Part shown: piece by piece, positions 2,337-31,658 of the stretch
Numbering within the stretch: the stretch's first letter is position 1
How the letters are laid out: each line of letters starts with the position of its first letter
Translations under genes and position numbers: made by a program
The notes under the pieces: generated by a model
Told to the model about the DNA's origin: nothing
Databases searched by the model: none
What the model saw: only the letters and a program-made list of their open reading frames with translations
Source of the DNA: Acidobacteriota bacterium
Lineage (GTDB): Bacteria; Acidobacteriota; Terriglobia; Acidiferrales; UBA7541
Direction: 5' to 3'
DNA: 32,155 nt
Assembly (NCBI GenBank): GCA_003224055.1
Contig: QHYE01000104.1
Span: 1 to 32,155 of the forward strand

Positions 2337-4067
2337 TCAGCGCTTGCGCACCTTCTTCACGACAAGCTCCGGGGAAAGCGCGCCGTTTTTGAAAAGAAGC
2401 CCTCGCAGGGACACCGTGTAGCCATCAGCCAAAGCGCTAACATCTGAAACGCCTTCGAAGTCCGAATTGCTAGATGTTTGAACGTGGATGCTGCTAATGC
2501 CGACGTTGGTGAACAGCGCTGGCAGCGTATCGACGCTAAAGTTGGGTGGCACGATCGAGTCAGCCTTCACGTTTGCTGTGAATTGGGTCATCCGTAGCCG
2601 CACCCGGTCGGCGGTCACCGCGACGGGCGGACCTGGATTCGCCGGACCCGTCAGCCGGATCTCGACCGTCTGGCCGGGCAATAGCTGCGATGTATCCGTT
2701 GCTCCTTCGAACCCACCCTGTAGCGCACTCGGTACCGATAGGCCGTCAGCCTTCACCTGGAATCCAGGATTGCTCAAAGTGACGACGGTGGGGTTCCCGA
2801 CGTTCACGTTGTTGACGCTTCTGAGTTCGTCGAGCACAACCATCTCGAAGTGCGTCGCGTCGTCGATTTTGAAGACGATGCCTTCGAGTTCGTCGTCCTC
2901 GGTGTCGTCTTCGAATTCAATCTTCTTGGCCAGGAACACTCCCCCGGCCATGAGCTTTGCGTCCACCTCCACAACTTGATTGTTCTGCAAGCAGGTGAAA
3001 TTATTCGCGGCGCACGCCTCGAAGTCGAACTCCGTATTGTTGTCTGTCGTGATCGGAAAGTCGCCTTCCGATGTATGTAGCGTGAACTTCTTGTTTGTGG
3101 TGTCGAGGCCTTGAACAGCTCCCCTCAGGTCCTCCAGATCGTCCAGCTCACCGGCTGGCTTCATCGTGAGTTGCTGAACGCTGACTGCCCCGGCAAGACT
3201 GAAATCCACGCCCAGAGTAGTGCTGAGAATTGTGTTCGGGTTGACGTCCACCTGGATGCCGGCCGGTGAATTCGCCATGATGACAATACCCGACCCTGGA
3301 AAATTAACCGTTGAGGTAAGCGTTCCCGTTGGTTTGATCTCGCATCCGGCCCCAGGGGCGCAGCCGGCCAGCGTGGCTCCCGTATCATTCTTGAAAGTAA
3401 GTTCGGGATTGGCAAACGTGAGGGTGAGGCTCGTGAACGTCCCCGGAGTTACGGTTGCCGTGGTGAGAAACGCCGATTCTGTTTCGAGTTGCTTTACCTC
3501 AATCTGAATTGGCCCCCTGCCGCCGAGCAGATCCACGCTGCCCGGATTGAGCATGGCCCCAGTGACGCTTACTTCGAACGATAGCAGCGTCACACCCGCT
3601 GGCGGCGTGTCCGTCATCGTGAGCGACACTGCCGCGGCTCCCGCAGCTGCAGCCGCCGTAACGGTGATCGTCGCAGTGGAGCTTTTCGTGGCGTCGTTGA
3701 CCGAGGTCGCAGTGAGTGTGACGGTGGTGGGACTGGGCGGGCTGGCAGGTGCATTGTAGGTGACCGAACTCGGCGTCGCGGCGGTGAGCGAACCACAAGA
3801 AGTGGCCACGCTGCAACCTGCGCCGGAGAGGGCCCAGGTAACCCCTCTGCTCAAGTAATCGTTCATGACCGTAGCCGTGAAATTCTTGGTTCCGGTACCA
3901 GCCGGCACGCTGGCGCTTGTCGGAGAGATGGTTACGGAAGTTGGTGTTGGTGGCGGCTGAGAAGGCGGACTATAACTGCCGCAGCCGTCAAGGCCGAGAA
4001 GGCCCGCGAACAAGATCAGTCCAGACGAAATACGGCGCGGTATCAGACTGCTGATATGTCGTGGCAT
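2337..4067 (-). CDS. Secreted lipoprotein with Ig-like, DUF4382-like and DUF5666-like regions
   Basis: 576 aa if translation starts at 4067 (MPRHISSLIP); an ATG 13 codons upstream is also in frame. The N-terminus has basic residues, a hydrophobic stretch and a lipobox ending GLDGC, so it should be a lipid-anchored envelope protein. A Pro/Ser/Thr-rich linker leads to a bacterial Ig-like (Big_2-type) domain (SVTISPTSASVPAGTGTKNF). The middle resembles DUF4382 (DLLGG, ATVTPGTFTSLTLTF). The C-terminal half resembles repeated DUF5666 beta units (GAVQGLDTTNKKFTL, ELEGIVFKIDDATHFEMVV, TADRVRL). Family names are from memory of patterns, not a search. Function unknown; a cell-surface role is inferred. 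It is divergent from the heme-porin operon, with phased repeats in the shared upstream region. Confidence 0.65.
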   Translation of the reverse strand: MPRHISSLIPRRISSGLILFAGLLGLDGCGSYSPPSQPPPTPTSVTISPTSASVPAGTGTKNFTATVMNDYLSRGVTWALSGAGCSVATSCGSLTAATPSSVTYNAPASPPSPTTVTLTATSVNDATKSSTATITVTAAAAAGAAAVSLTMTDTPPAGVTLLSFEVSVTGAMLNPGSVDLLGGRGPIQIEVKQLETESAFLTTATVTPGTFTSLTLTFANPELTFKNDTGATLAGCAPGAGCEIKPTGTLTSTVNFPGSGIVIMANSPAGIQVDVNPNTILSTTLGVDFSLAGAVSVQQLTMKPAGELDDLEDLRGAVQGLDTTNKKFTLHTSEGDFPITTDNNTEFDFEACAANNFTCLQNNQVVEVDAKLMAGGVFLAKKIEFEDDTEDDELEGIVFKIDDATHFEMVVLDELRSVNNVNVGNPTVVTLSNPGFQVKADGLSVPSALQGGFEGATDTSQLLPGQTVEIRLTGPANPGPPVAVTADRVRLRMTQFTANVKADSIVPPNFSVDTLPALFTNVGISSIHVQTSSNSDFEGVSDVSALADGYTVSLRGLLFKNGALSPELVVKKVRKR

Positions 4068-4169
4068 GTTCGAACGCCCCCGAATGAGTGATGCAGCCCG
4101 GCCCATTTGATTCGATTGCCTGCTGCCAGGACTTCCAAGGAGTGAGGTTAGGCAATTCGCGAACTGCGA

Positions 4170-4246
4170 TTGTCACAGGTTTGTCTGGCATATGTAAAAA
4201 GTCATTCACATCTGCATCACACAAGAAATTCACATTCGGGTGACAA
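4170..4246. promoter_or_regulatory. Two opposed arrays of 11-bp-spaced TTGTCA-like repeats (candidate response-regulator operators)
   Basis: On the + strand TTGTCA (4170-4175), TTGTCT (4181-4186) and ATGTAA (4192-4197) start exactly 11 bp apart. On the - strand TTGTCA (4246-4241), ATGTGA (4235-4230) and TTGTGT (4224-4219) also start exactly 11 bp apart. They lie between the divergent genes starting at 4067 and 4339, each array nearer to one gene. Direct repeats with one-helical-turn spacing are how OmpR/PhoB-family regulators bind (Pho box TGTCA repeats). Similar arrays occur at 9050 and 9437. Which regulator binds is inference. Confidence 0.6.
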
Positions 4247-4338
4247 CTCCACTGTTCCTTCCTGCCACTCTGCATGATCTAACCGGTTCGCGAGAATTTT
4301 GGGCACACAAAAATAACCAGCCGAGAACAGTGCGGATC

Positions 4339-5739
4339 ATGATGCTGTTCAGATTAAGAGTTATATTACTGTTGGTGCTCGTCTTGGGGGCGCTTTTCTC
4401 TCTGCGTCAGCCCGCACATGCCATCCCCGCGTTCGCGAGGAAGTACAGCTTGCCCTGCTCTGCCTGTCATGAGGCTTGGCCAAAACTGAATGACTTCGGG
4501 ATCGCGTTCCGGGACAGGGGCTATCAGTTGGGAAATGAAAAAGATTCCCCGATTTGGCAGAACCCGAGCTACTGGCCGATCACGATGCGAATCACACCGC
4601 AATGGCACAGAGAGAGCAGTAGCAACCAAGTAGTGGACACAGTTCCGGGCAACCCTGCACTCGGACAGACGTTCCAGAACGCCACGACTCACGGCTTTGA
4701 TTTTGGCGGCGTAGACATCTGGGCTGCCGGAACTCTTTATAAAGACATCTCTTTTTCTCTGCTGCCCTCATCTGATTCTTCCGGATCCTTTCATTTTGAA
4801 AACGCGTTCGTTCGTTTTGATAATCTATTTAGGACACGCTGGGTAAACGTCAAGTTCGGGAAATTCGAACTCGACAACCTGGTCTCCGAGAAGCGCATGC
4901 TGTTTCTCTCCAACAATGGCGGGTTCTATCAGGTTTATCACTACACGCCGTTCCGAGAAGCCCAGTTTCGCGCTTCAGGTCCTTCGATCGTGCAATTCGG
5001 TGACGCCTTTGGCATCGGCGACAACCAATTGGGTGTTGAGCTGTCGGGCCACTCCGAAAATAGCTATACGCGTTATTCGGTCGCATTATTGAGCAGCAAT
5101 GAGGGTAATCCGGGTTTGCCTAACCGAACCTACGATGGTTGGGCGAGCTTCAACCAAGGGTTTCAGGTAGGCAAGCTTGGGGTGCAGCGCCTCGGAGGGT
5201 TTGCCTATTTCGGACAGCGGCCCACCTTCTTCAACACGTCCCTTGGGAGTCCGGTTTTGGGCCAAGGGCTCGGGAGCAAGTCCTTTTATCGTGCCGGACT
5301 GACAGGACTCTTCTACATAAAAAAGCTCGACTTCAGCACGGTATTTGTACACGGATGGGACAACGTCTTCCTCGGGACAGGAACCGCGGCAAATGCGTCG
5401 CTACCCGTGGGAGCGCGGGGGCCAAGCTGGAATGGTGGATTTGTCGAAACCCACTTCACCTATTCTCCGCAGCTCGTCTTTGTGCAGCGCAACGAAATCG
5501 TGCGCATGTCCCGCCAAGTGTTCAGCGCAGACCCGCGCGATCTGGGTGATGTAGATGCTTTCTCGTTCGGGCTGAGGTATTACCCGTTCATGTCCAGCCG
5601 CGCGGGGCTGGCCCTCCACACCGAGTACTCGTTCGTTCGCTCGTACAAGTCTGCGTCACCGCTCCCTACGAGTACGAGCCCGTTTGGACCCGATCTGCGG
5701 GCGAGTAGCGTGTTTGTTGGGCTCGATTTCGCATTTTAA
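4339..5739 (+). CDS. Outer-membrane beta-barrel protein with one N-terminal c-type heme motif
   Basis: 466 aa from the ATG at 4339 (a second ATG follows at 4342). The frame is open further upstream to 4240, but that start would put 33 extra residues before the signal peptide. The signal peptide is RLRVILLLVLVLGALFSL with cleavage near PAHA. Directly after it comes IPAFARKYSLPCSACHEAWP, with a heme-attachment motif C40-x-x-C43-H44. The remaining ~400 residues look like porin beta strands with alternating aromatic residues and end in LDFAF, the terminal Phe typical of barrels inserted by the Bam complex. This layout, a single heme next to a barrel, fits an electron-conducting or substrate porin in the outer membrane. 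The next gene is a diheme cytochrome, supporting a redox role. The partner and direction of electron flow are unknown. Confidence 0.7.
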   Translation: MMLFRLRVILLLVLVLGALFSLRQPAHAIPAFARKYSLPCSACHEAWPKLNDFGIAFRDRGYQLGNEKDSPIWQNPSYWPITMRITPQWHRESSSNQVVDTVPGNPALGQTFQNATTHGFDFGGVDIWAAGTLYKDISFSLLPSSDSSGSFHFENAFVRFDNLFRTRWVNVKFGKFELDNLVSEKRMLFLSNNGGFYQVYHYTPFREAQFRASGPSIVQFGDAFGIGDNQLGVELSGHSENSYTRYSVALLSSNEGNPGLPNRTYDGWASFNQGFQVGKLGVQRLGGFAYFGQRPTFFNTSLGSPVLGQGLGSKSFYRAGLTGLFYIKKLDFSTVFVHGWDNVFLGTGTAANASLPVGARGPSWNGGFVETHFTYSPQLVFVQRNEIVRMSRQVFSADPRDLGDVDAFSFGLRYYPFMSSRAGLALHTEYSFVRSYKSASPLPTSTSPFGPDLRASSVFVGLDFAF

Positions 5740-5752
5740 GAGGGAACTCCCA

Positions 5753-6607
5753 ATGAAGCACAGCCGCATGCGGGCGCATCTTGCGGGTATCCTAGCTCTC
5801 CTCCTTGCGGGAGGCGGCCCGGCAACCTTCGCCCAAGAGACCCACATAGGCGGCCTCACGGGAGAAGCGAGCCGGGGAAAGCAGCTCTACCGGCGTTATT
5901 GCGTCGGATGCCACGGTCCGCTGGGAGACGGTCGGGGAGAAAACGCGGTGTGGATCGATCCCAAGCCGCGTAATTTTGTGACGGGCACGTTCAAGTGCCG
6001 CTCCACGCCGACGGGCGCGCTCCCGACTGACGAAGACCTCTACATGTCCGTGACGCGTGGATTCGTCAACTCAAACATGCCATCATGGCTGCCGCTCACC
6101 GAGCAGCAACGTGTGGATCTGGTTGCTTATGTGAAGACTTTCTCTTCAAGTTTCCGCGAGGAAAAGCCCGCTGCTCCCGTGCCGGTGCCCTCAGAGTCGG
6201 CGGCCAATCAGCAGAGCATTCAGCGCGGCAGCGAGCTTTTTCAAAAAATGAACTGCTGGGCGTGTCACGGCAAGGAAGGACGCGGGGATGGCCCATCCGC
6301 GCAAACGCTGGTGGATAATAGAGGCTACCCGATACCTCCCTACGATTTCTCGGGAGGGACGCGTTTCAAGTGCGGCGAGTCTAACCAAGACCTTTATCGC
6401 ATTCTTATGACTGGACTGGATGGCACGCCGATGCCTTCGTATGCAAGCGGTCTGACGCCGGCCCAGGCATGGGACCTGGTGCACTACCTACGGACACTTC
6501 AAATCAATGCGAAACACAAACGGCCAACGGCTGACAGCGAACAAAAGCACAGGAGCGAGAGTAAACCAGTTGGTGAGGAACTCGAGGGACGCGCTAACCG
6601 GTTTTAG
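5753..6607 (+). CDS. Periplasmic diheme cytochrome c
   Basis: 284 aa from the ATG at 5753, 13 nt after the porin stop, with AGAGGGA upstream; an ATG at 5684 lies inside the porin gene and is unlikely. A signal peptide (ILALLLAGGGPATFA) precedes two cytochrome c domains. The first has RRYCVGCHGPLGDGRG (heme motif C50, C53, H54) and the candidate distal Met in NMPSWLPLT. The second has MNCWACHGKEGRGDGP (C168, C171, H172) and TPMPSYASGL with another candidate axial Met. Both resemble the mono-heme cytochrome c / CccA group. The Lys/Arg-rich tail after residue ~255 is polar and probably disordered. It likely passes electrons between the heme porin and a periplasmic or membrane partner; the blue-copper protein encoded next is one candidate. 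Confidence 0.85.
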   Translation: MKHSRMRAHLAGILALLLAGGGPATFAQETHIGGLTGEASRGKQLYRRYCVGCHGPLGDGRGENAVWIDPKPRNFVTGTFKCRSTPTGALPTDEDLYMSVTRGFVNSNMPSWLPLTEQQRVDLVAYVKTFSSSFREEKPAAPVPVPSESAANQQSIQRGSELFQKMNCWACHGKEGRGDGPSAQTLVDNRGYPIPPYDFSGGTRFKCGESNQDLYRILMTGLDGTPMPSYASGLTPAQAWDLVHYLRTLQINAKHKRPTADSEQKHRSESKPVGEELEGRANRF

Positions 6608-6694
6608 TTACCCGGCGATTTCGAGGAAAAGTCAAGAGCTGAAGATGAGAGGAGTCCTTTTACCAATCCCGGGCCTTCTGGGAGGAAATGCCCC

Positions 6695-7477
6695 ATGGGA
6701 ACGATAATCAAATGCCTTCACCTTATCGCTGCGGCGATATTCGCTTTCTCGACGGCACCTGATATCGCCAGGAGGACCATGGCGATTACCAGAGCGAGCG
6801 GCGCGACGACAAGAACCAGCGAGGCTTGGCCTGGCGTGCCCGAAGACGGGACCGTATCGGGCACGGTGAGAGTGACAGGGCCGCAAACTGTGGCCACGCG
6901 CATCGACATGGCTGCGGATCCCGCGTGTTTGAAGATGCACCCTGCGCCGGTGATGAGCGACGAAGTCGTCACGGGACCGAACGGCGCGCTGAAAAATGCA
7001 ATCGTCTACATTTCCGAGGGGATTGGGAATCATTCCTTCGATCCGCCCACCATACCCGCCGTGTTTGAGCAGAAGGCTTGCACTTATAATCCGCGTATTC
7101 TTGGGATGCGGGCAAGACAGACCCTCCGGCTCATCAACAGCGATCCCACGACCCACAATATCCACCCCGTGCCGCAGAACAATCGGGAGTGGAACCTCTC
7201 GCAACCCCCAGGCTCATCTCCTATCGAGGAATCCTTCGCCCGCGAGGAGATTATTCCGGTGAAGTGCAATGTACATCCTTGGATGAAGGGCTACATCGCT
7301 GTTTTCAAGCATCCTTACTTCGCGATCACCAACAAGGATGGCATGTTCGAACTGAAAAACGTCCCGCGCGGCGAGTATACGATCGAGGCCTGGCATGAAA
7401 AGTACGGCGTGCTGACTCAGAAGGTCACACTCGAAACCAATCAAGCAAAAACTCTGGAATTCGTTTTCAAGCGCTAA
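6695..7477 (+). CDS. Secreted cupredoxin with carboxypeptidase-regulatory-like tail
   Basis: 260 aa from the ATG at 6695, with GGAGG at 6681-6685. The N-terminus is a signal peptide. A cupredoxin-like domain follows, with likely type-1 copper ligands His154 (PTTHNIHP) and Cys191, His194 and Met197 in KCNVHPWMKGY. The last ~70 residues (FAITNKDGMFELKNVPRGEYTIEAWHEKYG) form a small beta-sandwich like the carboxypeptidase regulatory domain. Proteins of this shape are often labelled methylamine utilisation protein, but no methylamine genes are present. An extra Cys in DPACLKMHP lies near the N-terminus. It is the third gene of the redox operon and probably acts as a small electron carrier in the periplasm. 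Copper binding is inferred from the motif. Confidence 0.75.
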   Translation: MGTIIKCLHLIAAAIFAFSTAPDIARRTMAITRASGATTRTSEAWPGVPEDGTVSGTVRVTGPQTVATRIDMAADPACLKMHPAPVMSDEVVTGPNGALKNAIVYISEGIGNHSFDPPTIPAVFEQKACTYNPRILGMRARQTLRLINSDPTTHNIHPVPQNNREWNLSQPPGSSPIEESFAREEIIPVKCNVHPWMKGYIAVFKHPYFAITNKDGMFELKNVPRGEYTIEAWHEKYGVLTQKVTLETNQAKTLEFVFKR

Positions 7478-7799
7478 GGCACGAGCTCGGACACCTGGCG
7501 ACTCCTGGCAGAGACCCGGCAGACGATGCAAGTCACAAATAGCAGCGACGAACTGCTCGCACAACCATAGTTACGCCCAGTGCGTCCAGTAAAACACCCA
7601 TTATGGACGCGAATAGAAAAAGTATAGTCGTGCTTTGTGCCGTTCAGCCCTGGCTCTCGTTCGCGATTCAAATTGCTATTGGTGGAGCGCCGATGAAACT
7701 GTATCTCCTCATCGGCGCCCCGCAGCCGTTGATTCAGGGAACGCTTCCTAGTTTCCGATTCAACTGTGTGACGAAAAACCGGGCTGAAAGTCGTCCGCT
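7478..7799. other. Convergent intergenic region
   Basis: 322 bp between two convergent genes. It holds the hairpin at 7687-7718 and otherwise nothing I can support; an open frame from 7603 has no ribosome site and runs antisense into the next gene. Confidence 0.5.
7687..7718. terminator. Hairpin in convergent intergenic region
   Basis: GCGCCGATGA (7687-7696) and TCATCGGCGC (7709-7718) form a perfect 10-bp stem with a 12-nt loop; flanking bases extend it with one mismatch. There is no clear T tract on either side, so it may be a bidirectional hairpin barrier or another RNA end rather than a classical intrinsic terminator. Confidence 0.4.
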
Positions 7800-8924
7800 T
7801 TATTCTTCGTCGCCGTCGAGGCCGTCAACGGGCGTGATAGTGCCGAAGAGACCGTCCTGTTCGCCGTTAATGCCAGCGGTGAAGAACAGGGTGTTGGCTG
7901 GTCCTGCGGTCCCATCATTGCCGAAGGTGAGCGACCACAAACCATCGATGGTGAGGATGGAATCGTCGGGGTTCTTTACGAAGCCCAAGAATTTGTAGGT
8001 GAAGCCGTTGAATGCAGCAATCTTGCCACTCCCGAAATTCCCGACGAGGATGGCGTTGCTGAACTCGCCGAAATCGCGCGTGGTCCAGACAACTCCCCAG
8101 GGTGAGTTGAACCACGGACCATGCTGAAGATGGCCGATGTGCCTGCCGGCCGGCGTGAAGATTTCAACGAAGCCGAGACCGTCACCGGCGACATCATCGT
8201 GCCGGGCGGCGTCCTGCTTGGCGTAGGTGACGAAGAGAGTGCCACCGATGTTTTGAATATTGAACGGCGCGAAGCCGTGGGGGATTTCCTCGGCTTCGAA
8301 CGCCTCTTCTCCAAGGCGCACGCGCTTGAAGTTGGTGTCATAGACTTCAACTCTCGCGGAACGGAAATTGGTAACGTAGAGAAATTTGTTGCCGTTGATT
8401 TCGCCGGAGGTTGCGCCTTTGTAGACGGCGCCGTTCGCGGAGCCGTTATCGGAGTTGTCAACGACGAGTACGGCGTTCTGTCCGCCGTTCCAGCCGGCGA
8501 TCGTTCCGTCTTCCGTGGCAAAGATGAAGTGAGCGGATTTGCCGGGCGCAACCAGAAAATCCGTGGGGCTGCCATTGAAAACGACACCTGTGGGAGTTGA
8601 CTGGGTTCCCGCCGGCGAACCATTCGGCGGCGGAACGGTGACGTTGCCAGTGCCGTTAATGGGAATGGCGCCGCCCGTGCCGTTGTAGAGAGTGGAGGTA
8701 CCGGAATTGTTGTTGGAAACCCACCAAGGGCTGCCGCCCGGGGAGCGAGTCAGTCCCCAAGGGTTTTTCAGATTGGGGTCAGGAGGATTTGGAGTGGAAA
8801 TCGAGGCCAGATTCGAAACGAGGTTCGTTTGTTTATAATGTTGCGCACGTGCGAGAACGGGGAGCAGTAGCGCAGCGAGGCCAAGGAATAAGGATGACCT
8901 CAAGAACTTAGCGGCACACTTCAT
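7800..8924 (-). CDS. Secreted TIGR03118-like beta-propeller protein
   Basis: 374 aa from the ATG at 8924, chosen because GGAAGG lies just upstream and a clean signal peptide follows (FLGLAALLLPVLARAQ). The frame is open to 9056, but the upstream residues are Arg/Ser-rich and unlike a leader. Typical sequence features are YKQTNLVSNLA, NPWGLTRSPGGSPWWVSNNNSGTSTLY and GTIAGWN, which I recognise as those of the TIGR03118 family. NHL-like repeats (HGFAPFNIQNIGG, SPWGVVWTT) suggest a propeller fold. The biochemical role of the family is unknown. The tail ends DGLDGDEE. The gene stands alone, and an array of 11-bp-spaced repeats sits about 125 bp upstream, suggesting co-regulation with the redox genes. 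Confidence 0.75.
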   Translation of the reverse strand: MKCAAKFLRSSLFLGLAALLLPVLARAQHYKQTNLVSNLASISTPNPPDPNLKNPWGLTRSPGGSPWWVSNNNSGTSTLYNGTGGAIPINGTGNVTVPPPNGSPAGTQSTPTGVVFNGSPTDFLVAPGKSAHFIFATEDGTIAGWNGGQNAVLVVDNSDNGSANGAVYKGATSGEINGNKFLYVTNFRSARVEVYDTNFKRVRLGEEAFEAEEIPHGFAPFNIQNIGGTLFVTYAKQDAARHDDVAGDGLGFVEIFTPAGRHIGHLQHGPWFNSPWGVVWTTRDFGEFSNAILVGNFGSGKIAAFNGFTYKFLGFVKNPDDSILTIDGLWSLTFGNDGTAGPANTLFFTAGINGEQDGLFGTITPVDGLDGDEE

Positions 8925-9049
8925 ATAAGCCCTTCCTTCCAAATGACGTTTAGTGTCGAAATTCGGGCTCCAGCGTGGGGACGATCTACGGGCTGACGCC
9001 GGTTTTCGAGCTTTCCGCGAATTGAGATAGCAAGAATTCTCCGAGAAGG

Positions 9050-9088
9050 TTGTCACAACAATTGTAAAAATTTGTCAAAAGATTGTCC
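9050..9088 (+). promoter_or_regulatory. Four TTGTCA-like repeats at ~11-bp spacing
   Basis: TTGTCA (9050-9055), TTGTAA (9062-9067), TTGTCA (9072-9077) and TTGTCC (9083-9088) have starts 12, 10 and 11 bp apart. The array lies about 125 bp upstream of the leftward gene starting at 8924. The repeats closely match those at 4170 and 9437. Candidate binding site for an OmpR/PhoB-family regulator. Confidence 0.6.
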
Positions 9089-9436
9089 GTCGGGTGGGGA
9101 AGCGCTCCGAAGGTCAGACTTCTCTGTTGTAGTTATTTGCCTTACCGGGCCATTGATCCCAGGCAGAGTCAATTGTCAAGCGGAGCAGCGACTCTAAGAA
9201 TCTCACGGGTTCGGAATTTGAGTGCACACGCATTTTCAAACTCCAAGTTGAGTCGTCCTTACAGTCACGGAAAGCAACAAGGAAAGGCAGGACACAAGAT
9301 TGGGTGTGTATGCCGCGGCTCCCGGACTAACCCAGATTCGACGCCCCGCGGCCAAGATTCGCCCGGCCTCGTCAGTGGGACCGGCAAGCGCAGCTCGCCA
9401 CGGTGGGTTCACCGCCGAAGGGGGTAGACGAGCAAG

Positions 9437-9475
9437 TTGTCGGGATTTTGTCACCAGCATGTAAAAGTTTTGTTT
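9437..9475 (+). promoter_or_regulatory. Four TTGTCA-like repeats at exact 11-bp spacing
   Basis: TTGTCG (9437-9442), TTGTCA (9448-9453), ATGTAA (9459-9464) and TTGTTT (9470-9475) start exactly 11 bp apart. The array ends 112 bp upstream of the porin start at 9588, whose operon leads to the response regulator at 12014. Relative to its gene it is in the opposite orientation to the other arrays. Candidate OmpR/PhoB-type operator. Confidence 0.6.
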
Positions 9476-9587
9476 GCATCAGCGGGAGCGCATCATTAGC
9501 GGGGTTTACTTCGTGTACGGCGAAGCGGCTTAATTCCTGTCCGGAGTACAATTGAAAGCTCGTCGATGCTTTGGGAGGAGAGACTAT

Positions 9588-11150
9588 ATGAACCTTTCTA
9601 CCAGAGGCCTGTTGCGAGCAAGTGGGCGCTTGCTGTGCGTAGTGCTCGCGGGTGGCTTGCCCGCGTTTGCTCAATCCGCTTCCGCACCAGCGAGCCAAGC
9701 CGAACTGGACGCCAAAGTTCGAATGTTGTGCCAAACGCTCGAAGAGACGCGCGTCGAGCTCTCGGAGTCGCGATCGGAAATCCGGCAGCTCCGGGCAATG
9801 CTTGAACTAGTGCTGCGGAAAATGGGGGAGCCTGACAAACCTGCGCCCGCTGCCGTGGCCCCTCGAGAACAGGCACCCGAAAAATCCTCTGGAAACTCTC
9901 AAGAGACGAAATCAAACGATGAGCAGAACCTGGCCCGCATTACTGAGGACGATTGGCAGATTGCAAAGGCAAGGTTGGAGGAACTCCAACAAGACAAAGT
10001 GGAAAGCAGCTCAAAGTACCGGCTGAAGCTTTCGGGCATAGCCTTGTTCAACGCATTCGGCCAGACGGGTCATATGGACAACCTGGACGCGCCAACCGTC
10101 GCAATCCAGCAAGCACCCGGAGCGTCATCGGGCAGCCTCGGCGCTTCACTCAGGCAATCGATTGTCGGACTGACAGGTGTTGGCCCCAGTATCTACGGTG
10201 CAAGAACGTCCGGCGACGTTCAAATGGATTTCTTCGGCGGGTTGCCAAGCGGCTACGGGGCGGCAACTTCAGGCGTGATGCGCCTGCGTGTTGCCCGGAT
10301 TCGATTCGACTGGGAAAATACTTCAGTTGTTGTCGGCCTGGATGTACCCCTTTTCTCTCCAAATACGCCCACCTCTTACATGTCACTGGCCGTGCCGGCA
10401 TTCGCCTCTGCCGGAAACCTTTGGACGTGGACGCCTACGATTCGCGTTGAACAACGATGGCCGACATCTGTTTCACTGTTCAAAATCGAAGCAGGTGTCA
10501 TGGATCCCTCAAGGTATGCCAGCTCCAGCGCGAGTGTGCGCACTGCAAACCCCGGAGAAAGCTCTCGCAAGCCGGCTTATTCGCTGAGAATATCGGCAAA
10601 CGGAAGGAGCGAAAATCGGCCCCTATCCATTGCAGTTTCCGGCATTTACTTGCCGCAGCGCTATGGAGGGGAGACAGCCTCTGGATGGGGCGGTGTAACG
10701 GATTGGCGGCTGCCGTTGTTTCCGCATATGGAGTGGAGCGGCGAGTTCTTTGCAGGCAAAGGCCTGGACGTCTTTGGTGGAGTGCCCTACGTATTAGTTC
10801 AGCCTTCAGACCTCAATCGCTATAATTCTGTTACGGCGCCTGCTCTAGCCGGAATCAGGATGCTTGGCGGGTGGTCGCAAGTGAAGGTCAAGTTGAATTT
10901 CCGGAACGAATTTAACTTGGCAGCTGGCTCGGGCGCTCGCAGCGCCCGTGGTACACGTCAAACAGCTTTACTCGACCCGACTCTCCAATTCCTGTCGCGT
11001 CGTAACGATATGTGGTTTGTGAATTACATCTTTCGGCCACGGTCTGACCTTGTGTTTTCGACTGAGTACCGCCGCCTGAGGACCTACCAGGTCTCGGGAA
11101 CTCCGGCGATCGCCGGTCAAGTCGGCCTGGCAATGGGGTTCATTTTCTAG
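9588..11150 (+). CDS. Outer-membrane porin with N-terminal coiled coil
   Basis: 520 aa from the ATG at 9588, preceded by GGGAGGAGAG (9573-9582); an ATG at 9552 lacks this site. A signal peptide (GRLLCVVLAGGLPAFAQ) is followed by a heptad-rich helix (about residues 33-75: AELDAKVRMLCQTLEETRVEL, RQLRAMLELVLRKM) and a Pro/Glu-rich linker, then from about residue 135 a beta-barrel ending in LAMGFIF with a terminal Phe. The coiled coil before the barrel resembles trimeric porins that span the periplasm. No heme motif is present, unlike the porin at 4339. The substrate is unknown. The next gene, a blue-copper protein, begins at once downstream, which hints at a role in metal or redox handling. Confidence 0.65.
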   Translation: MNLSTRGLLRASGRLLCVVLAGGLPAFAQSASAPASQAELDAKVRMLCQTLEETRVELSESRSEIRQLRAMLELVLRKMGEPDKPAPAAVAPREQAPEKSSGNSQETKSNDEQNLARITEDDWQIAKARLEELQQDKVESSSKYRLKLSGIALFNAFGQTGHMDNLDAPTVAIQQAPGASSGSLGASLRQSIVGLTGVGPSIYGARTSGDVQMDFFGGLPSGYGAATSGVMRLRVARIRFDWENTSVVVGLDVPLFSPNTPTSYMSLAVPAFASAGNLWTWTPTIRVEQRWPTSVSLFKIEAGVMDPSRYASSSASVRTANPGESSRKPAYSLRISANGRSENRPLSIAVSGIYLPQRYGGETASGWGGVTDWRLPLFPHMEWSGEFFAGKGLDVFGGVPYVLVQPSDLNRYNSVTAPALAGIRMLGGWSQVKVKLNFRNEFNLAAGSGARSARGTRQTALLDPTLQFLSRRNDMWFVNYIFRPRSDLVFSTEYRRLRTYQVSGTPAIAGQVGLAMGFIF

Positions 11151-11156
11151 TTGGCT

Positions 11157-11891
11157 ATGAAGACCTGTCCACGCGGAATCGTCCCGTCGCTTTTGATCTT
11201 CTTCATCTCGGCGGCGGCGCAAACAAACGACCTTACTGGCCATCCGGCGCAGGCGGTCAAGGGTGAGGTCAGGCTGATTCAGGTAGACTCGGGGGGGACC
11301 GTAATGGACAGTTCCCGGGTAGTGGTTTGGCTCGTTCCTTTGGACACGGTCCGCCCGATTCGATTCAACGCTGAGCGACCGAACTACCGTATGGTGCAAC
11401 ACAACAAGACGTTCGAACCCAATTTGTTGGTCGTGCCCATGGGAAGCGTCGTCGTTTTTCCGAACCTCGATCCATGGTTTCACAGCGTGTTTTCGCTTTA
11501 CCGCGGGAAACGGTTTGACCTCGGACTTCATGAGGCGGGATCGCGGCAAGAGGTAAGATTCGACCGCCCTGGCGCATCTTATGTATTCTGCAACATTCAT
11601 CCGGAAATGGTGGCGGTTGTATTAACCGTGGACTCGGAATTCTATGGAATATCTGACAAAGCTGGACACATTTCCATCGCTGCCGTCCCTCCCGGAAGAT
11701 ACCTTCTTCGCGTGTGGTCCGAGAACGCCACTCCGGAGGCTCTGCGAGCCCTCGAACGTCTGATCATAATAGGCAACGGGAGCCACATCCTTCCGACGGT
11801 CTCGATTCCAGCGACCAGGCAAATTTCGATGAAGCACAAAAACAAGTTCGGGCGAGATTATGATCCCAAGGTACTGACGCCAGAGTACTAA
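11157..11891 (+). CDS. Secreted cupredoxin-like protein
   Basis: 244 aa from the ATG at 11157; a TTG at 11151, immediately after the porin stop, is an alternative start. The signal peptide is short (IVPSLLIFFISAAAQ). The cupredoxin region has candidate copper ligands His109 (LDPWFHSVFS) and Cys145, His148 and Met151 in VFCNIHPEM. A small regulatory-type beta domain follows (YGISDKAGHISIAAVPPGRYLLRVW). The architecture matches the protein at 6695, so the two are probably distant paralogs in parallel porin plus copper-protein units. The start is within a few bases of the porin stop, so they are co-transcribed. It is likely a periplasmic electron carrier or copper-binding protein; the function is inferred only. 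Confidence 0.7.
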   Translation: MKTCPRGIVPSLLIFFISAAAQTNDLTGHPAQAVKGEVRLIQVDSGGTVMDSSRVVVWLVPLDTVRPIRFNAERPNYRMVQHNKTFEPNLLVVPMGSVVVFPNLDPWFHSVFSLYRGKRFDLGLHEAGSRQEVRFDRPGASYVFCNIHPEMVAVVLTVDSEFYGISDKAGHISIAAVPPGRYLLRVWSENATPEALRALERLIIIGNGSHILPTVSIPATRQISMKHKNKFGRDYDPKVLTPEY

Positions 11892-12013
11892 AATCTTGCG
11901 TCTTCAAATCCAAAAGATGGCGGCACCCGTGCAATGGCGAGCCGCTCCCTCTTACGGAAGGTTGACAACTGTTACATATATGGGACCAACTTGGAAGATT
12001 CGGGGACGACAGA

Positions 12014-12751
12014 ATGGAAACCGTATTGGTGGTTGAAGACAGCCGCGCCATGCAGCGGACTTTGCAGCGTCTGTTTGAATCGGACGGGTTGCAAGTCCGG
12101 CTTGCATCCGACGGCGTTGAAGGCCTTGAGAGCTTCAAGAAACAGACGCCGAGCGTCGTGGTACTTGACCTCAAACTCCCGCGCCTGCCTGGCAAAGAAG
12201 TCTGCCGCGCGCTCAAGGCCTATGCAGCATCGGTCCCGATCGTCGTATTGAGCGCCAATACGGAAGTTGAGGACAAGGTTCTGCTTCTCGAACTCGGCGC
12301 GGACGACTACGTTACAAAGCCCTTTAGCCCTAAAGAGCTGCTCGCCCGTGTGCGTCGTGCGATGCGCCGCGGCGAACCAAGCACACCACATGGCACAACC
12401 GTCGCAGCGGAGACGCCCCAACATGAACTGCTGGCGTTCGGCGATATACGAATCGATTTTACTAGCATGGAGGCGGCGCGCACGGGCAAACCCGTCACAC
12501 TCACGACTCAGGAATTCAAACTGCTCAAGTTTTTCGCGCGCTCGCCTGGCAGAGTCATTTCACGAGAAGAATTGCTGAACGAAGTGTGGGGATACACCAA
12601 TTATCCGACCACTCGCACTGTCGATAACCATATCCTTCGTCTTCGGCAAAAACTCGAAGCTGACCCTGCCAACCCGCGCTACTTTCTGACCATGCACGGT
12701 TCGGGTTACAAGTTCGCACCCGACAGTGTAATGAATGGCCCTGAGAAATAA
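12014..12751 (+). CDS. OmpR/PhoB-family response regulator
   Basis: 245 aa. The receiver domain covers residues 1-120 with acidic E8/D9, phospho-acceptor Asp52 (VVVLDLKLPRLPG), Ser80 and Lys102 (DDYVTKPF). A winged-helix DNA-binding domain of the Trans_reg_C type follows from about residue 140 (LTTQEFKLLKFFARSPGRVIS, RTVDNHILRLRQKLE, GSGYKF). It acts as a cytoplasmic transcription factor phosphorylated by the kinase encoded 20 nt downstream. It lies 122 bp after the cupredoxin gene. Just upstream, TTGACAACTGTTACAT (11962-11977) contains reversed TTGTCA and ATGTAA hexamers, but with 9-bp rather than 11-bp spacing, so autoregulation is only a possibility. It is the best candidate to bind the phased arrays at 4170, 9050 and 9437. 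Confidence 0.9.
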   Translation: METVLVVEDSRAMQRTLQRLFESDGLQVRLASDGVEGLESFKKQTPSVVVLDLKLPRLPGKEVCRALKAYAASVPIVVLSANTEVEDKVLLLELGADDYVTKPFSPKELLARVRRAMRRGEPSTPHGTTVAAETPQHELLAFGDIRIDFTSMEAARTGKPVTLTTQEFKLLKFFARSPGRVISREELLNEVWGYTNYPTTRTVDNHILRLRQKLEADPANPRYFLTMHGSGYKFAPDSVMNGPEK

Positions 12752-12771
12752 GGCAGTTCACGGGGAATCCC

Positions 12772-14538
12772 ATGGCGCTTCTGCGGCTACGAACGCAGCT
12801 TCTCATTGCGACCTTGCTGATTATATCCACGTTAACGGGCGCCCTGCTCTTCATCGTCCGGCATGCCGTTCGGTCGGAACTCAACCAGGAAGTGCTGCAG
12901 AGCACCGACACCTCGATCCGCGCATTCCAAAGTGTTCAACGGCAACGTGAGTTCCAACTGTCCCAAACGGCGGCCATGCTGGCCGAGCTTCCTACTTTGA
13001 AGGCGTTAATGACAACCGAGGACGCGCTCACGATTCAGGATGCATCAGAGCCCTTCTGGAAGCTCGCGGGCAGTGACCTGTTTCTTCTGGCCAGGTCCGA
13101 CGGGAAAGTTCTGGGATTTCACGTCAAGAAACAGGGGTGGAGTCCGCGTGTCGCCGAGGCCGATCTTAGGAGATCCACGGAACAAGGAGAAGATGCAGCG
13201 TGGTGGTACGCGGACAATCAACTCTATTGGGTGTTCTTACGTCCGATAAACGTCGGGCCGGAGAATGACAGGAAACAACTTGGGGTGCTTGCCGTGGGGT
13301 ACCAGGTGGATTCCACTGTGGCCGAACAACTCGCGCTCGTTTCAGGCAGTCAGATTGTTCTTGCGATAGGCGACATCGTAATTGCTTCCACCCTTCCGTC
13401 GCGTGAGGAAAGTGAATTGAGGAGATGGGTTGGCCGGAAAGATCTCGGCCCCCCAACCAGAACGCAGGAGCTGACTCTTGGCACCGATCAATACCAAGTC
13501 GCATCGGTCTTGATCCACGAAGGTCCGCCGACCCCGGTGCGGTGCTATGTGCTCTTGTCCTTTCAACGGTCGAACAGTTTCCTTCAGCGACTCAATCGCA
13601 CAATCTTTATTCTCGGAATCTCAGCTGTGTTCCTGAGTGCTTTGCTGCTCAGCTTTGTCTCCCGCACGATCACACATCCCTTGGACAATCTTGTCTCCGG
13701 TGTCCGTGCACTCGCCGCCGGCGACTACATGTTTTCAATCACGCCGCGCGGGAGCAGTGAAGTTGCGGAATTGGGAGTGGCCTTCTCAAAAATGCGCGGC
13801 GAACTGTTGGCATCCCAACAGCGGTGGATCGCAAGCGAGCGGATCGCGGCTTTGGGCAGGGCCGCAAGCTCAATCTCTCACGATCTTCGCCACCACTTGG
13901 CGGCGGTCGTCGCGAACGCGGAGTTCTTGTACGAAGCGGAGAACTTGAAGCTCAACAGGGACGAGATCTACGAAGAGATCAAGACTGCGTCCGCTGAAAT
14001 GACCGATCTGCTGGATTCCCTGCGCGAATTAGCGCGAGAAGACAGCGCCGTATCTCCCACGTCCGCATTTCTCGATCAGACCGTCCGCCACGCGGTCGAA
14101 TCCGTGCTCACCAAGCCGGAGTTACGAAGCCGCCGGATTTCGATAACCGCGTCGGGCGAAATGGAGGGGTTCTTCGACCCTAAGAAGATGGAGCGAGCAT
14201 TTTTCAATCTGGTGCTGAACGCGTGTGAAGCTACGGCTCAGCGGCAGGGTCAGATCCGTGTCGAACTCCATTCCTCCCCGGAATCGTTTGAGGTTCGCGT
14301 CACGGACAACGGCCCTGGCATACCGGCATCGATCCGCAGCACGTTGTTCGATCCCTTCGTCAGCTCCGGAAAACCGAACGGCACTGGCCTTGGTCTCGCG
14401 ATTGTGAACAAAATCATTCACGATCACGGCGGATCCGTGAGCATCGAGCAAACTTCCGAAGCCGGAACAGTTTTTCTCGTCAAACTCCCGCGCTCTTCGC
14501 GTGCCGTGCGTGCAAGCTCACAGGCGACAGTCACTTAA
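12772..14538 (+). CDS. Membrane sensor histidine kinase
   Basis: 588 aa, partner of the response regulator upstream. TM1 is near residues 8-29 (LLIATLLIISTLTGALLFIV). A periplasmic sensor of ~240 residues follows, with a CACHE-like look (DLFLLARSDGKVLGFH, LGVLAVGYQVD). TM2 (FILGISAVFLSALLLSFVS) leads into a HAMP domain. The phosphorylated His370 lies in SSISHDLRHHLAAVVANAEF, an atypical H box with HDLRH rather than HELRTP. The ATPase domain has the N box NLVLNACEA, the G1 box DNGPGIP and the G2 box GTGLGLAIV. The likely signal is an extracytoplasmic small molecule or redox state, but no ligand can be read from the sequence. The extra basic HH pair after the phospho-His puts it in the HisKA variants common in PAS/CACHE kinases. 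Confidence 0.88.
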   Translation: MALLRLRTQLLIATLLIISTLTGALLFIVRHAVRSELNQEVLQSTDTSIRAFQSVQRQREFQLSQTAAMLAELPTLKALMTTEDALTIQDASEPFWKLAGSDLFLLARSDGKVLGFHVKKQGWSPRVAEADLRRSTEQGEDAAWWYADNQLYWVFLRPINVGPENDRKQLGVLAVGYQVDSTVAEQLALVSGSQIVLAIGDIVIASTLPSREESELRRWVGRKDLGPPTRTQELTLGTDQYQVASVLIHEGPPTPVRCYVLLSFQRSNSFLQRLNRTIFILGISAVFLSALLLSFVSRTITHPLDNLVSGVRALAAGDYMFSITPRGSSEVAELGVAFSKMRGELLASQQRWIASERIAALGRAASSISHDLRHHLAAVVANAEFLYEAENLKLNRDEIYEEIKTASAEMTDLLDSLRELAREDSAVSPTSAFLDQTVRHAVESVLTKPELRSRRISITASGEMEGFFDPKKMERAFFNLVLNACEATAQRQGQIRVELHSSPESFEVRVTDNGPGIPASIRSTLFDPFVSSGKPNGTGLGLAIVNKIIHDHGGSVSIEQTSEAGTVFLVKLPRSSRAVRASSQATVT

Positions 14539-15717: not shown

Positions 15718-16440
15718 TTATCGGGCACTGTCCATTTCAGGATGATGTGGATGGTGGGTGCTCAACTCTGCAAACCGCGCGAAAACGCCCTGGACAACAC
15801 GATCGCAGCGGACGCCCATAAATGGAAATGCATTTTTTGCTTCTGGTCCGACGCGCGCAAAAAGCCAGCCGCGCACCATCGCCCGGCCTCGATGCAGCCG
15901 AACCTTCACGTTCTGCTCGGTGAGGTCGAGCGCGGCGGCTGTCTCTGAAGTGCTCAACTCTTCGACGTCTCGCAGCATGACCACTGTTCGATACTGTTCC
16001 GGAAGGCCAAGCACTGCATCTTCCAGAAGCTGGCCGAGTTCGGCTCTGGACGCATTCTGCTCTGGATCAAGCGAAGTCTCGACCATATTCATAGAAAGTT
16101 CTCCATCATGCTCGGTGTCTTCCAGTTGCGGGTTGCGGTTGCGCAAGCGGAGCCGGGCCAACGCTTCGTGAACTGCAATGCGCGTCAACCAGGCAGAGAA
16201 AGGTGCTCGCCCAGCAAACTGGTCAAGGTGCTGATATGCCCGGACGTAGGCATCCTGCATCACGTCTTCCGCTTCGGCATCATCGCGCAAGATCGCGCGC
16301 GCGACACGATAGAGCCGCTGGTTGTACCGGCGCATAATGATCTCGTATAGGGCGGTATCTCCCGCGCGGATTCGGCCGACAACCTCCTCATCGGTCCATC
16401 CTTCTGACCTAGCCCTTCCCAGGATCTCAGTGCCTTCCAT
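15718..16440 (-). CDS. ECF-type RNA polymerase sigma factor
   Basis: About 240 aa from the ATG at 16440; an ATG three codons upstream (16449) is equally possible. Sigma region 2 is clear (YEIIMRRYNQRLYRVARAIL, AEDVMQDAYVRAYQHLDQF, APFSAWLTRIAVHEAL), and region 4 has GLPEQYRTVVMLRDVEELST and EQNVKVRLHRGRAMV. After region 4 there is an extra ~40-residue tail (FPFMGVRCDRVVQGVFARF, then HHPHHPEMD) carrying a Cys and a His cluster. Such tails can sense metals or redox in some ECF groups, but this is not shown here. No anti-sigma gene is adjacent. It is divergent from a DoxX-like gene. A possible ECF promoter, TGTAACC (16482-16476, - strand) with CTCTATAG 16 nt further on, would suggest autoregulation. 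Confidence 0.88.
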   Translation of the reverse strand: MEGTEILGRARSEGWTDEEVVGRIRAGDTALYEIIMRRYNQRLYRVARAILRDDAEAEDVMQDAYVRAYQHLDQFAGRAPFSAWLTRIAVHEALARLRLRNRNPQLEDTEHDGELSMNMVETSLDPEQNASRAELGQLLEDAVLGLPEQYRTVVMLRDVEELSTSETAAALDLTEQNVKVRLHRGRAMVRGWLFARVGPEAKNAFPFMGVRCDRVVQGVFARFAELSTHHPHHPEMDSAR

Positions 16441-16451
16441 AGCTCTCATAA

Positions 16452-18203: not shown

Positions 18204-18884
18204 TTGCGCATCCTTGTAGTGGAAGACGAAGCGAAGGTGGCTCGCGCTCTTCGAGAAGGGCTGGAGCGCGAGAAGTACGAAGTTGTCGTTGCGCCAACCG
18301 GAGAAGAGGGATTCTTCCTGGTCAATGCGGAGGAATTCGATCTTGTCCTTTTGGATCTCATGCTTCCGGGTCGCGACGGACTCCAGGTGCTATCCACGTT
18401 AAGAAAGCGTGGATTGCAGACCCCGGTTCTCATACTCACCGCGCGTGACGCAATCGAGGACCGAGTCGAAGGACTCGACAAGGGTGCCGACGATTATCTT
18501 GTGAAACCCTTCGCATTCCCGGAGCTTTTGGCGCGCGTCCGGGCGTTACTTCGACGCGGGCGGACCGAACAATCCCACCACCTAAGACTTGCTGATTTGG
18601 AAGTGGAGGTGTTGACTCGCAAAGCGAGACGGAGCGGGCAACCACTGGACCTGACAGCCCGAGAGTTTGAGCTGCTCGAATATCTGCTTCGGCACAAAGA
18701 GCAGGTCGTTTCGAGAGAGATGCTGGCGCGCTACGTCTGGAAAGAGACCAGTCGGGCAACGCCACTCGATAATGTAATGGACGTTCACATCAACCGGCTT
18801 CGCCGCAAGGTGGATGAGCCCTTTGACCGCAAGTTGATTCACACGGTTCGCGGTGTCGGATTCGTGCTGCGAGAGGAACAATGA
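18204..18884 (+). CDS. CusR/CopR-like response regulator
   Basis: 226 aa starting at a TTG codon (18204), supported by GGGAG (18191-18195) and by the N-terminus MRILVVEDEAKVARAL aligning with the family start. The receiver domain has E7/D8, phospho-acceptor Asp51 (LVLLDLMLPGRDG), Thr in LILTARD and Lys in DDYLVKPF. The Trans_reg_C DNA-binding domain starts near residue 125 (LTAREFELLEYLLRHKEQVVS, NVMDVHINRLRRKVD, GVGFVL). It is the first gene of a tightly packed run reaching 27004. The closest known types control copper, silver or other heavy-metal efflux, but here the operon carries chromate-type genes. The kinase start overlaps its stop (ATGA). Confidence 0.9.
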   Translation: MRILVVEDEAKVARALREGLEREKYEVVVAPTGEEGFFLVNAEEFDLVLLDLMLPGRDGLQVLSTLRKRGLQTPVLILTARDAIEDRVEGLDKGADDYLVKPFAFPELLARVRALLRRGRTEQSHHLRLADLEVEVLTRKARRSGQPLDLTAREFELLEYLLRHKEQVVSREMLARYVWKETSRATPLDNVMDVHINRLRRKVDEPFDRKLIHTVRGVGFVLREEQ

Positions 18885-20314
18885 GATTCAGGCCGCGAAA
18901 CGTCCGTTCCCGATTGACGCTCTGGTATGTGCTCGTGCTGGCGAGCCTTTTGGCTTTGTACGCGGGAGTTGCTTCATTATTCCTGTTCTTGAGCTTGCGC
19001 GAGGATTTTGATCAGAACCTCCTTCAAGACATTGAAACGGTAGAGGGGATGCTTGCGAAGGAGCCAAACGGACTCGTATCTCTCCATGCCAGCCATCCAG
19101 ACGCGGCTGAACCAAGAATCGGGCATCTCATCGAAGTATGGTCGCCCGAGGGCTCGCTCCTCTATCGAAGTGCGGCGCTCCAGGACCAGGCATTGGGTGG
19201 TTCTCCTGACCGGGATGAGGGCCTGCACGATCCGGCTCCGTCCACTTCCCGGCTTCCGAATGGTACCCGAGTCAGGATGGCAAGCAGCATCTATCACGTA
19301 GAAGACCGGCGCGTCGTTATCCGAGTTGCCTACGGTGAAGACAGATTGTGGCGTGAACTCAGCGAATTTGGAGAAGTCTTGTTGCTTGGCTTTCCGATTG
19401 CTGTGTTGCTCGCAGGTTTCGGGGGCTACGCCCTCGCGCGAAAAGCACTCGCCCCGATCGATTCCATGGCCACGCAAGCAACAAAGATTTCGGCCGAACG
19501 GCTGAGTGACCGCCTTTCCATCGAAAATTCCGAAGATGAATTAGGAAAGCTCGGCGCCGTTTTCAACGACACGCTCGCGCGATTGCAAGCCGCCTTCGAT
19601 CAGCTGCGCCGCTTCACGGCTGACGCCTCCCACGAATTGCGTACTCCGCTCACTGCGATTCGAAGCGTTGGTGAGGTTGCGCTCCAGGACCAGAGGAGTC
19701 CGGTGGAGTATCGCGACGTGATCGGAAGCATGCTGGAAGAAGTAGATCGCCTGACGCGGCTCTCGGAGAGCTTGCTTGCGCTCTCTCGTGCCGATGCTGG
19801 CCATGTGCAGCTCCAGCGTGAAGACATTTCTCTTGTGCGCGTCGCAAGGGAAGCCAGTTCGCTCGTCGAAGTGTTGGCAGAGGAGAAACGCCAACGGACT
19901 GATATCGAAGGCAACGCAGACCTTCTGGTCTCCGCTGATCGCCTGATTCTCCGACAAGCCATCGTCAATCTGCTGGATAACGCGATTAAGTATTCGCCGC
20001 CGGAGAGCAGGATTCTGGTCCGGGTACAAAGCGAGGGAGACAAGCAGGTGTCCTTGGACGTGGTCGACCAGGGACCTGGAATTCCCAGCGAACATCAGCC
20101 GTATGTCTTCGACCGCTTTTACCGAGTTGACAGAGCACGGACCCGGGAATGGGGTGGCACCGGCCTCGGACTGTCCATCACTCGCTGGGCCATCGAAGCG
20201 CACGGTGGGAACGTAGCTCTCGAAAGCACAGAAGGCCGTGGCAGCACGTTTCGCATTTCTCTGCCACTCGCGAAATATTCCTCTACGAATCAGTCAAAAG
20301 GAGGCCCGCAATGA
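18881..20314 (+). CDS. CusS-like sensor histidine kinase
   Basis: 477 aa; its ATG at 18881 overlaps the regulator's TGA. TM1 (LTLWYVLVLASLLALYAGVASLF) and TM2 (VLLLGFPIAVLLAGFGGYALA) enclose a ~120-residue periplasmic sensor with few metal-ligand residues beyond a cluster of His near DPAPSTSR/HASHPDAAEP. A HAMP domain (ALARKALAPIDSM) is followed by the phospho-acceptor His251 in TADASHELRTPL. The ATPase boxes are NLLDNAIKYSP, DQGPGIP and GGTGLGLSI, with FDRFYR as the F box. This is the layout of the heavy-metal sensor kinase group (CusS/CopS). The true signal is unknown. It ends in ATGA shared with the next gene, so expression of sensor and effector genes is translationally coupled. Confidence 0.9.
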   Translation: MRFRPRNVRSRLTLWYVLVLASLLALYAGVASLFLFLSLREDFDQNLLQDIETVEGMLAKEPNGLVSLHASHPDAAEPRIGHLIEVWSPEGSLLYRSAALQDQALGGSPDRDEGLHDPAPSTSRLPNGTRVRMASSIYHVEDRRVVIRVAYGEDRLWRELSEFGEVLLLGFPIAVLLAGFGGYALARKALAPIDSMATQATKISAERLSDRLSIENSEDELGKLGAVFNDTLARLQAAFDQLRRFTADASHELRTPLTAIRSVGEVALQDQRSPVEYRDVIGSMLEEVDRLTRLSESLLALSRADAGHVQLQREDISLVRVAREASSLVEVLAEEKRQRTDIEGNADLLVSADRLILRQAIVNLLDNAIKYSPPESRILVRVQSEGDKQVSLDVVDQGPGIPSEHQPYVFDRFYRVDRARTREWGGTGLGLSITRWAIEAHGGNVALESTEGRGSTFRISLPLAKYSSTNQSKGGPQ

Positions 20315-31581: not shown

Positions 31582-31658
31582 GTCCGCTCCTATATCGTTT
31601 GTCCTGGAACTGCGGACTTTCGCAGGGACTCGGACGAATGCTCCGTTCCATAACTGAG

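Follow-up and report, generated by a model that had tools for sequence, protein, structure and literature searches.

Gene organization and array placement

The window considered here is a complete contig of 32,155 bases (QHYE01000104.1, contig C99) from an Acidobacteriota bacterium, and it represents 0.7% of the sequence of a 4.53-Mb genome held in 136 contigs. It carries a set of envelope electron-transfer genes, a response regulator (RR) gene followed by a sensor histidine kinase (HK) gene, and four arrays of TTGTCA-like hexamers repeated every 11 bp, which are proposed here to be the operators of that RR. A DUF5666 lipoprotein-like gene (2337–4106, minus strand; PF18914) diverges from a plus-strand operon that comprises porin1, a putative Cyc2-type fused monoheme cytochrome-porin recognized by its Cyc2 motif and an AlphaFold2 (AF2) barrel (4339–5739), a diheme cytochrome c with two stretches each of PF00034 and PF13442 (5753–6607), and cup1, a cupredoxin-like protein with a CarboxypepD_reg domain (6695–7477; PF13620) and a copper-site pattern visible in its translation.

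Downstream on the minus strand lies a gene of the TIGR03118 family (7800–8924; 319.5 bits against an NCBIfam cut-off of 79.95). It diverges from a second plus-strand cluster consisting of porin2, a predicted outer-membrane barrel (9588–11150); cup2, a cupredoxin-like protein (11157–11891); the RR, an OmpR/PhoB-type protein with PF00072 and PF00486 (12014–12751); and the HK, with a probable dCache-type sensor followed by HAMP, HisKA and HATPase_c domains (12772–14538; PF00672, PF00512 and PF02518). These domain matches bear out the initial annotation of an OmpR/PhoB-family regulator and kinase at 12014–14538. Porin2 and cup2 have no Pfam match, and cup2 homologues mostly adjoin porin2. Both porins, the copper sites of both cupredoxins, and cup2 itself were read by eye, without a decisive family match.

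The four arrays occupy two divergent intergenic regions, two arrays in each: 4107–4338 between the lipoprotein and porin1 genes, and 8925–9587 between the TIGR03118 and porin2 genes. The initial annotation had counted three such regions, while all 14 of its hexamer positions and strands were confirmed. Array 1 (4170–4197, plus strand) consists of TTGTCA, TTGTCT and ATGTAA in 11-bp steps and points to the cytochrome-porin operon. Array 2 (4219–4246, minus strand) consists of TTGTCA, ATGTGA and TTGTGT in 11-bp steps and points to the lipoprotein gene. Array 3 (9050–9088, plus strand) precedes the TIGR03118 gene yet is oriented away from it. It had been described with steps of 12, 10 and 11 bp but is better read as 9050, 9061, 9072 and 9083, in which TTGTCA, a degenerate unit, TTGTCA and TTGTCC follow in 11-11-11 phase; the TTGTAA at 9062 is not conserved in three close relatives (loci L007, L008 and L009). 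Array 4 (9437–9475, plus strand) consists of TTGTCG, TTGTCA, ATGTAA and TTGTTT in 11-bp steps upstream of the porin2-cupredoxin-RR-HK cluster.

The window contains four triples of the form WTGT-N7-WTGT-N7-WTGT, whereas 100 dinucleotide-shuffled versions of it average 0.01. This expectation overstates the surprise because the pattern was chosen from the finding itself, a bias from which the held-out comparative tests described below are free. In the whole-genome scan that the initial annotation had suggested, the triple has five matches, four of them in the window, and the backwards pattern has none; the fifth match (C93:2108) falls within a crudely called open reading frame (ORF). The two-unit pattern TTGTCA-N5-TTGTCA with one mismatch matches 13 times in this genome, three of them in the window, against four times in reverse. 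Two of the ten matches outside the window lie between genes and eight fall on crudely called ORFs, and none of them established a further target in the genome.

Conservation and phasing of the arrays

In L007, L008 and L009, porin1 is 88–89% identical to the window protein and every gene from the lipoprotein to the kinase is kept. Comparing these intergenic regions, another check put forward with the initial annotation, shows the arrays kept in place, array 2 only partly. On a scoring matrix built from the window's 13 good hexamers, array 2 scores 18.4 in L008 and 13.4 in L007 and L009, where two good units remain. Across the window, L007 and L008 (L009 being nearly equal to L007), identical positions number 50 of 56 in the WTGT cores, 26 of 50 in the spacers, and 381 of 741 in the remainder of both regions. 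As blocks the arrays are not outstandingly conserved, since equal or better windows make up 49/205, 152/205, 108/625 and 186/625 for arrays 1 to 4, and the contrast between cores and spacers is the only informative conservation measure. The L009 record (QHQE01000121.1) is titled Verrucomicrobia and its locus is almost identical to that of acidobacterial L007; it is perhaps a misbinned or misnamed contig.

The matrix was also applied to 36 porin1 loci, the three close ones included and overlapping registers counted. Triples scoring at least 16 number 35 against 1 in reversed sequence, those scoring at least 20 number 19 against 0, and those scoring at least 10 number 136 against 63. Phasing was examined in 40 upstream regions from distant Acidobacteria that had no part in building the matrix; they comprise 23 regions of porin1, 15 of the RR, and two of TIGR03118 picked because arrays had already been seen there. 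Pairs of strong units occur 25 times at 11 bp, eight times at 22 bp and four times at 33 bp, with zero to two at each other distance from 7 to 40 bp. Reversed sequence of the same regions gives no pairs at 11, 22 or 33 bp and zero to two elsewhere. In a score-selected set of 67 distinct arrays from distant genomes, every one has G at the third position of its third unit.

Repeats of this kind could instead be AT-rich promoter or curvature elements that are phased by chance. On the minus strand, parts of arrays 1 and 3 do fit a loose sigma-70 pattern, and a sigma-70 scan of the two intergenic regions gives one and two matches against 0.4 and 0.3 in shuffles. Such elements would not be expected to show base-specific cores with free spacers, little or no signal in reversed sequence, or the dependence on the RR that is seen at TIGR03118 genes, and this explanation is exceedingly improbable.

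The response regulator and its kinase

The RR reaches the cut-off of none of the 25 NCBIfam models listed, including the PhoB equivalog TIGR02154, against which it scores 191.5 bits where 296.2 are needed to call a PhoB. In a tree of response regulators, its orthologues form one clade of 18 tips, with support 0.90 and separate from the PhoB-like clade. Their recognition-helix signature, GYxNYP[TS]TRTVDNHIL[RK]LRQKLE, is found in 11 of the 18 RR orthologues and in none of the 18 other sequences in the tree; the genome's own PhoB has GTDRFVTPRSVDVYVRRLREKIE at this site. The sensor region of the kinase resembles PF14827 weakly in 10 of 13 kinases (E up to 5), and the window kinase matches it with an E of 0.0011, below the curated cut-off.

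Genomes were sorted as RR-positive (RR identity of at least 58%) or RR-negative (at most 52%), a cut that we set and that the RR clade in the tree backs. The 28 genomes with porin1 loci include 17 RR-positive genomes, among them the three close relatives, and 11 RR-negative genomes with nothing above 52%. In the 15 RR loci of the 14 distant RR-positive genomes, the RR is accompanied by the kinase in 14 and by porin2 homologues in 13. The RR of genome G111 is split over two frames, and a run of N lies in the kinase gene behind it.

Genes that carry arrays

A strict site, defined as three WTGTMA units at 11 bp with one mismatch, was sought in 29 genomes and gave 42 rows against four for the reversed pattern. 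After merging, 33 strict sites fall in 18 RR-positive genomes (the window's genome and its close relatives included) and six in 11 RR-negative genomes (Mann-Whitney p 0.002); among distant genomes only, the counts are 26 in 14 and six in 11 (p 0.006). These p values are indicative because RR-positive and RR-negative genomes are phylogenetically non-independent. Five of the six RR-negative sites are built of TGTAA-type units. Strict sites are absent from two RR-positive genomes, G093 and G116.

Within 350 bp upstream of RR orthologues, an array scoring at least 15 is present in 8 of 15 loci (seven in the direction of the gene and one in the opposite direction only), and one scoring at least 12 in 11 of 15. 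In reversed 370-bp windows the same thresholds are reached in 2 and 10 of 514. The window RR and kinase genes follow porin2 and cup2, so that array 4, at the head of this cluster, is the likely equivalent of the arrays found upstream of the RR elsewhere.

The TIGR03118 family is present in all 14 distant RR-positive genomes and in 3 of the 11 RR-negative ones. Of 27 copies, 25 could be scored. One RR-negative copy is a fragment. An array scoring at least 15 lies at 16 of the 20 RR-positive copies and at none of the five RR-negative copies (Fisher p 0.0024), with a background of 1 in 207, and four of these five RR-negative copies are the nearest homologues of the window protein (67–83% identical over the aligned part). 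The array points away from the gene at 15 of the 16 scoring copies, as window array 3 does. Fourteen of these outward-pointing arrays lie about 90–205 bp before the start and one about 320 bp before it.

Arrays are also enriched upstream of porin1: among 33 distant loci, seven reach a score of 16 in the 600 bp before the gene, whereas the other windows of these loci do so in 9 of 1499 cases. In L022 and L030 the array is found one gene farther upstream, ahead of a gene for a winged-helix protein with only a DNA-binding domain (DBD) and of a TetR-like gene (by eye), respectively. The DBD-only gene (L022:9474-9881, plus strand) is short, is akin to the C-terminal half of the RR, and lies between the array and the cytochrome-porin gene.

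Strict sites further adjoin a second porin1 gene (L168) and the gene of a protein with 18 CxxCH motifs (L165). The latter (L165:3-1475, minus strand) encodes a multiheme cytochrome-like protein directly behind a strong array and is a possible regulon member. Similar secreted, propeller-like proteins, so judged by eye, are encoded divergently to arrays in three genomes (L142:5362-6630, L143:8253-9515 and L181:745-2001). Small membrane-protein genes that resemble each other (by eye) neighbour a perfect strict array in L158 and L159; G109, one of these two genomes, is RR-negative.

The phylogenetic non-independence of the sampled genomes is one of several points that weigh against assigning the arrays to this RR. 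RR-negative genome G109 holds a perfect strict site of the TGTCA type. Seven of the 15 RR loci miss a score of 15, and the 122 bp directly before the window RR (11892–12013) hold no array scoring at least 10, so that autoregulation here presupposes co-transcription from array 4. Four of the 20 RR-positive TIGR03118 copies also miss a score of 15, three of them at 14.0 to just under 15. Upstream of porin1, a score of at least 15 is reached in 6 of 14 RR-positive and 2 of 11 RR-negative genomes, counting one locus per genome and omitting L034 (the second locus of RR-positive G105, score 3.8) and genomes without RR sorting. These counts tie porin1 weakly to the regulator and do not establish that its arrays depend on the RR; outside this lineage porin1 is the weakest regulon member. 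The bare WTGT triple was rejected as a marker beyond its own genome, with about 116 matches against about 84 reversed in 89 family genomes including its own (hand-summed); because it is not diagnostic in other genomes, the comparative tests use the fuller matrix or the stricter pattern.

The initial annotation had offered, as an inference, that an OmpR/PhoB-type regulator jointly controls four transcripts. Shared control is supported by the arrays at the RR gene, by those at TIGR03118 genes, which among the genomes examined occur with the RR only, by those at part of the cytochrome-porin operons, and by the strict 11-bp spacing. The porin1 operon is weaker as a general member. The lipoprotein gene is probably a regulon member in this lineage, judging from the close relatives only.

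Relation to Pho boxes and to other regulators

The E. coli PHO box is described as CTGTCAT in 11-nucleotide direct repeats (PMC4415409), which makes it a serious possibility that PhoB binds the arrays as Pho boxes and that these envelope genes belong to the phosphate regulon. The PHO box closely resembles TTGTCA-N5-TTGTCA, the RR shares 45% identity with the PhoB-like protein of its genome, and a box upstream of phoU in the same genome reaches a matrix score of 17. The likeness extends to the regulator family, the 11-bp direct repeats and the TGTCA core.

The phosphate genes themselves, however, form a cluster on contig C135 with its own regulator, whose best model is PhoB (279.5 bits, cut-off 296.2), and with a PnpS-type kinase, PstS, PstA, PstB and two PhoU proteins above their cut-offs. 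Arrays are rare at phosphate genes. Among the best 30 of 60 phoU matches from 25 genomes, scanned for 1.5 kb on each side with any Pho promoter farther off out of reach, one neighbourhood holds an array scoring at least 15. This sole case is the same box as in the window's own genome, of the type TTTTCAC..TTGTGAA..CTGTAA, which is unlike the window arrays. The same phased box (G000:C135:60473-60500, equal to L073:8474-8501) is found again in genome G103 and is a probable Pho box of the group. Furthermore, the arrays track the RR, whereas PhoU matches occur in 25 of 25 genomes. The RR differs from PhoB as a separate protein with its own clade and recognition helix, and its proposed targets are envelope electron-transfer genes. 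On these sequence comparisons the arrays are probably not Pho boxes, and membership of these genes in the phosphate regulon is very unlikely.

A second regulator that co-occurs with the RR could bind the arrays in its place and leave the RR a mere neighbour. Candidates would be a sister OmpR-type clade, represented in four genomes of the tree, and the L022 DBD-only protein, whose gene adjoins both the array and the porin1 gene. Against this stand the arrays in the 350 bp that precede the RR gene itself, present at 8 of 15 distant loci and at seven of them in its direction. In addition, G101 and G102, two of the four genomes that have the sister clade, contain neither this RR nor a strict site. 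Binding by another regulator is improbable, and the RR encoded at 12014–12751 remains the preferred candidate.

The Cyc2-type operon

Porin1 carries the motif AIPAFARKY...CSACH...PKL and has one CXXCH behind its signal peptide. The Cyc2 signature is given as AXPXFAR[Q/K][T/Y] before CXXCH and PXL after it, and its first part is called Cyc2-unique (PMC8406198). The strict motif is present in 25 of 28 aligned porin1 sequences, the window's included; L019, L024 and L040 miss it, the aligned stretch of L040 starting too late. The AF2 model of porin1 is a barrel with a predicted local distance difference test (pLDDT) value of 74.9, and its nearest match in the PDB is the phosphate porin OprP (2o4v; template modeling score 0.52). 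Residues 21–74, the heme region, fall below a pLDDT of 50. The model lists 18 strand elements at moderate confidence, some split or merged, where the Cyc2 criterion is 16. Motif and model alike identify the heme-porin as a predicted Cyc2-type cytochrome-porin in a rus-like operon. It shares with the Cyc2 fused cytochrome-porins the signature motifs and an N-terminal cytochrome fused to a barrel, and differs in representing an acidobacterial group known here from sequence and model.

In Acidithiobacillus ferrooxidans, the rus operon (cyc2, cyc1, cox, rus) combines a Cyc2-type porin with AfCyc1, which is a cytochrome c of the c4 type, with cox genes and with a cupredoxin (PMC10654088). The order of porin, cytochrome, cupredoxin and cox genes is similar here: in 18 of 25 porin1 loci a cox1 gene lies no more than about 2 kb behind cup1, a count that omits 11 of the 36 loci as short or without cup1 behind the cytochrome c. 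Unlike rus, the window's operon and those of its three close relatives have no adjoining cox1, and in L015, L018, L022 and L023 too cox1 does not come after cup1 within that distance. The two-component regulator RegB/RegA is reported to bind the rus promoter region (PMC5506826), and for the present operon too a two-component regulator is proposed. The RR differs from RegA in its OmpR/PhoB-type winged helix and in its clear, predicted repeat operator. A search for RegA sites in At. ferrooxidans is reported in the same article to have failed (PMC5506826).

Elsewhere in the window, DUF1259 and chromate-transporter genes come after a second OmpR-type regulator with a kinase (18204–20314). Positions 15718–16449 (minus strand) encode an ECF-type sigma factor, and positions 29524–31662 (minus strand) a P-type ATPase.

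The proposed regulatory circuit

The placement, phasing and co-occurrence of the arrays make it highly probable that they are the operators of the RR encoded at 12014–12751, which would form with its targets a dedicated and probably autoregulated two-component regulon around Cyc2-type electron transfer. In this regulon, the kinase (12772–14538) would probably sense a signal outside the inner membrane via its dCache-like domain and would phosphorylate the RR. RR molecules would bind along a single DNA face in head-to-tail order, with one per 11-bp TTGTCA-like unit and three to four per array. The RR would thereby control its own operon of porin2, cupredoxin, RR and HK, as well as the Cyc2-type operon of cytochrome-porin, diheme cytochrome c and cupredoxin. 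The TIGR03118 gene would be a further target and so, probably, would the DUF5666 lipoprotein gene within this lineage. The Cyc2-type porin itself may oxidize an extracellular donor, for example Fe(II).

A more tentative suggestion is that the system is an acidobacterial circuit dedicated to controlling extracellular electron uptake of the Cyc2 type, in which the periplasmic dCache kinase may read an outside donor or redox state. The polarity of an array might here serve as a code, with the RR activating the operons to which arrays point and repressing or oppositely controlling the TIGR03118 genes, where nearly all scoring copies have arrays that point away from the gene.

The regulator family, the 11-bp repeats and Cyc2 are of known kinds, and the regulon and its operator are a new member; searches of open-licence papers, judged by titles and the starts of abstracts, did not find either. 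Little is known about the control of cyc2 genes, and tests of cyc2 regulation in diverse organisms have been called for (PMC7029218). An operator, a regulator-kinase pair and a small conserved set of targets would together give an acidobacterial cyc2 circuit. The near-constant reversed placement of arrays at TIGR03118 genes offers a handle on whether repeat polarity sets the sign of control. The array may also serve as a promoter tag for finding further envelope electron-transfer genes, one candidate being the gene whose product has 18 CxxCH motifs.

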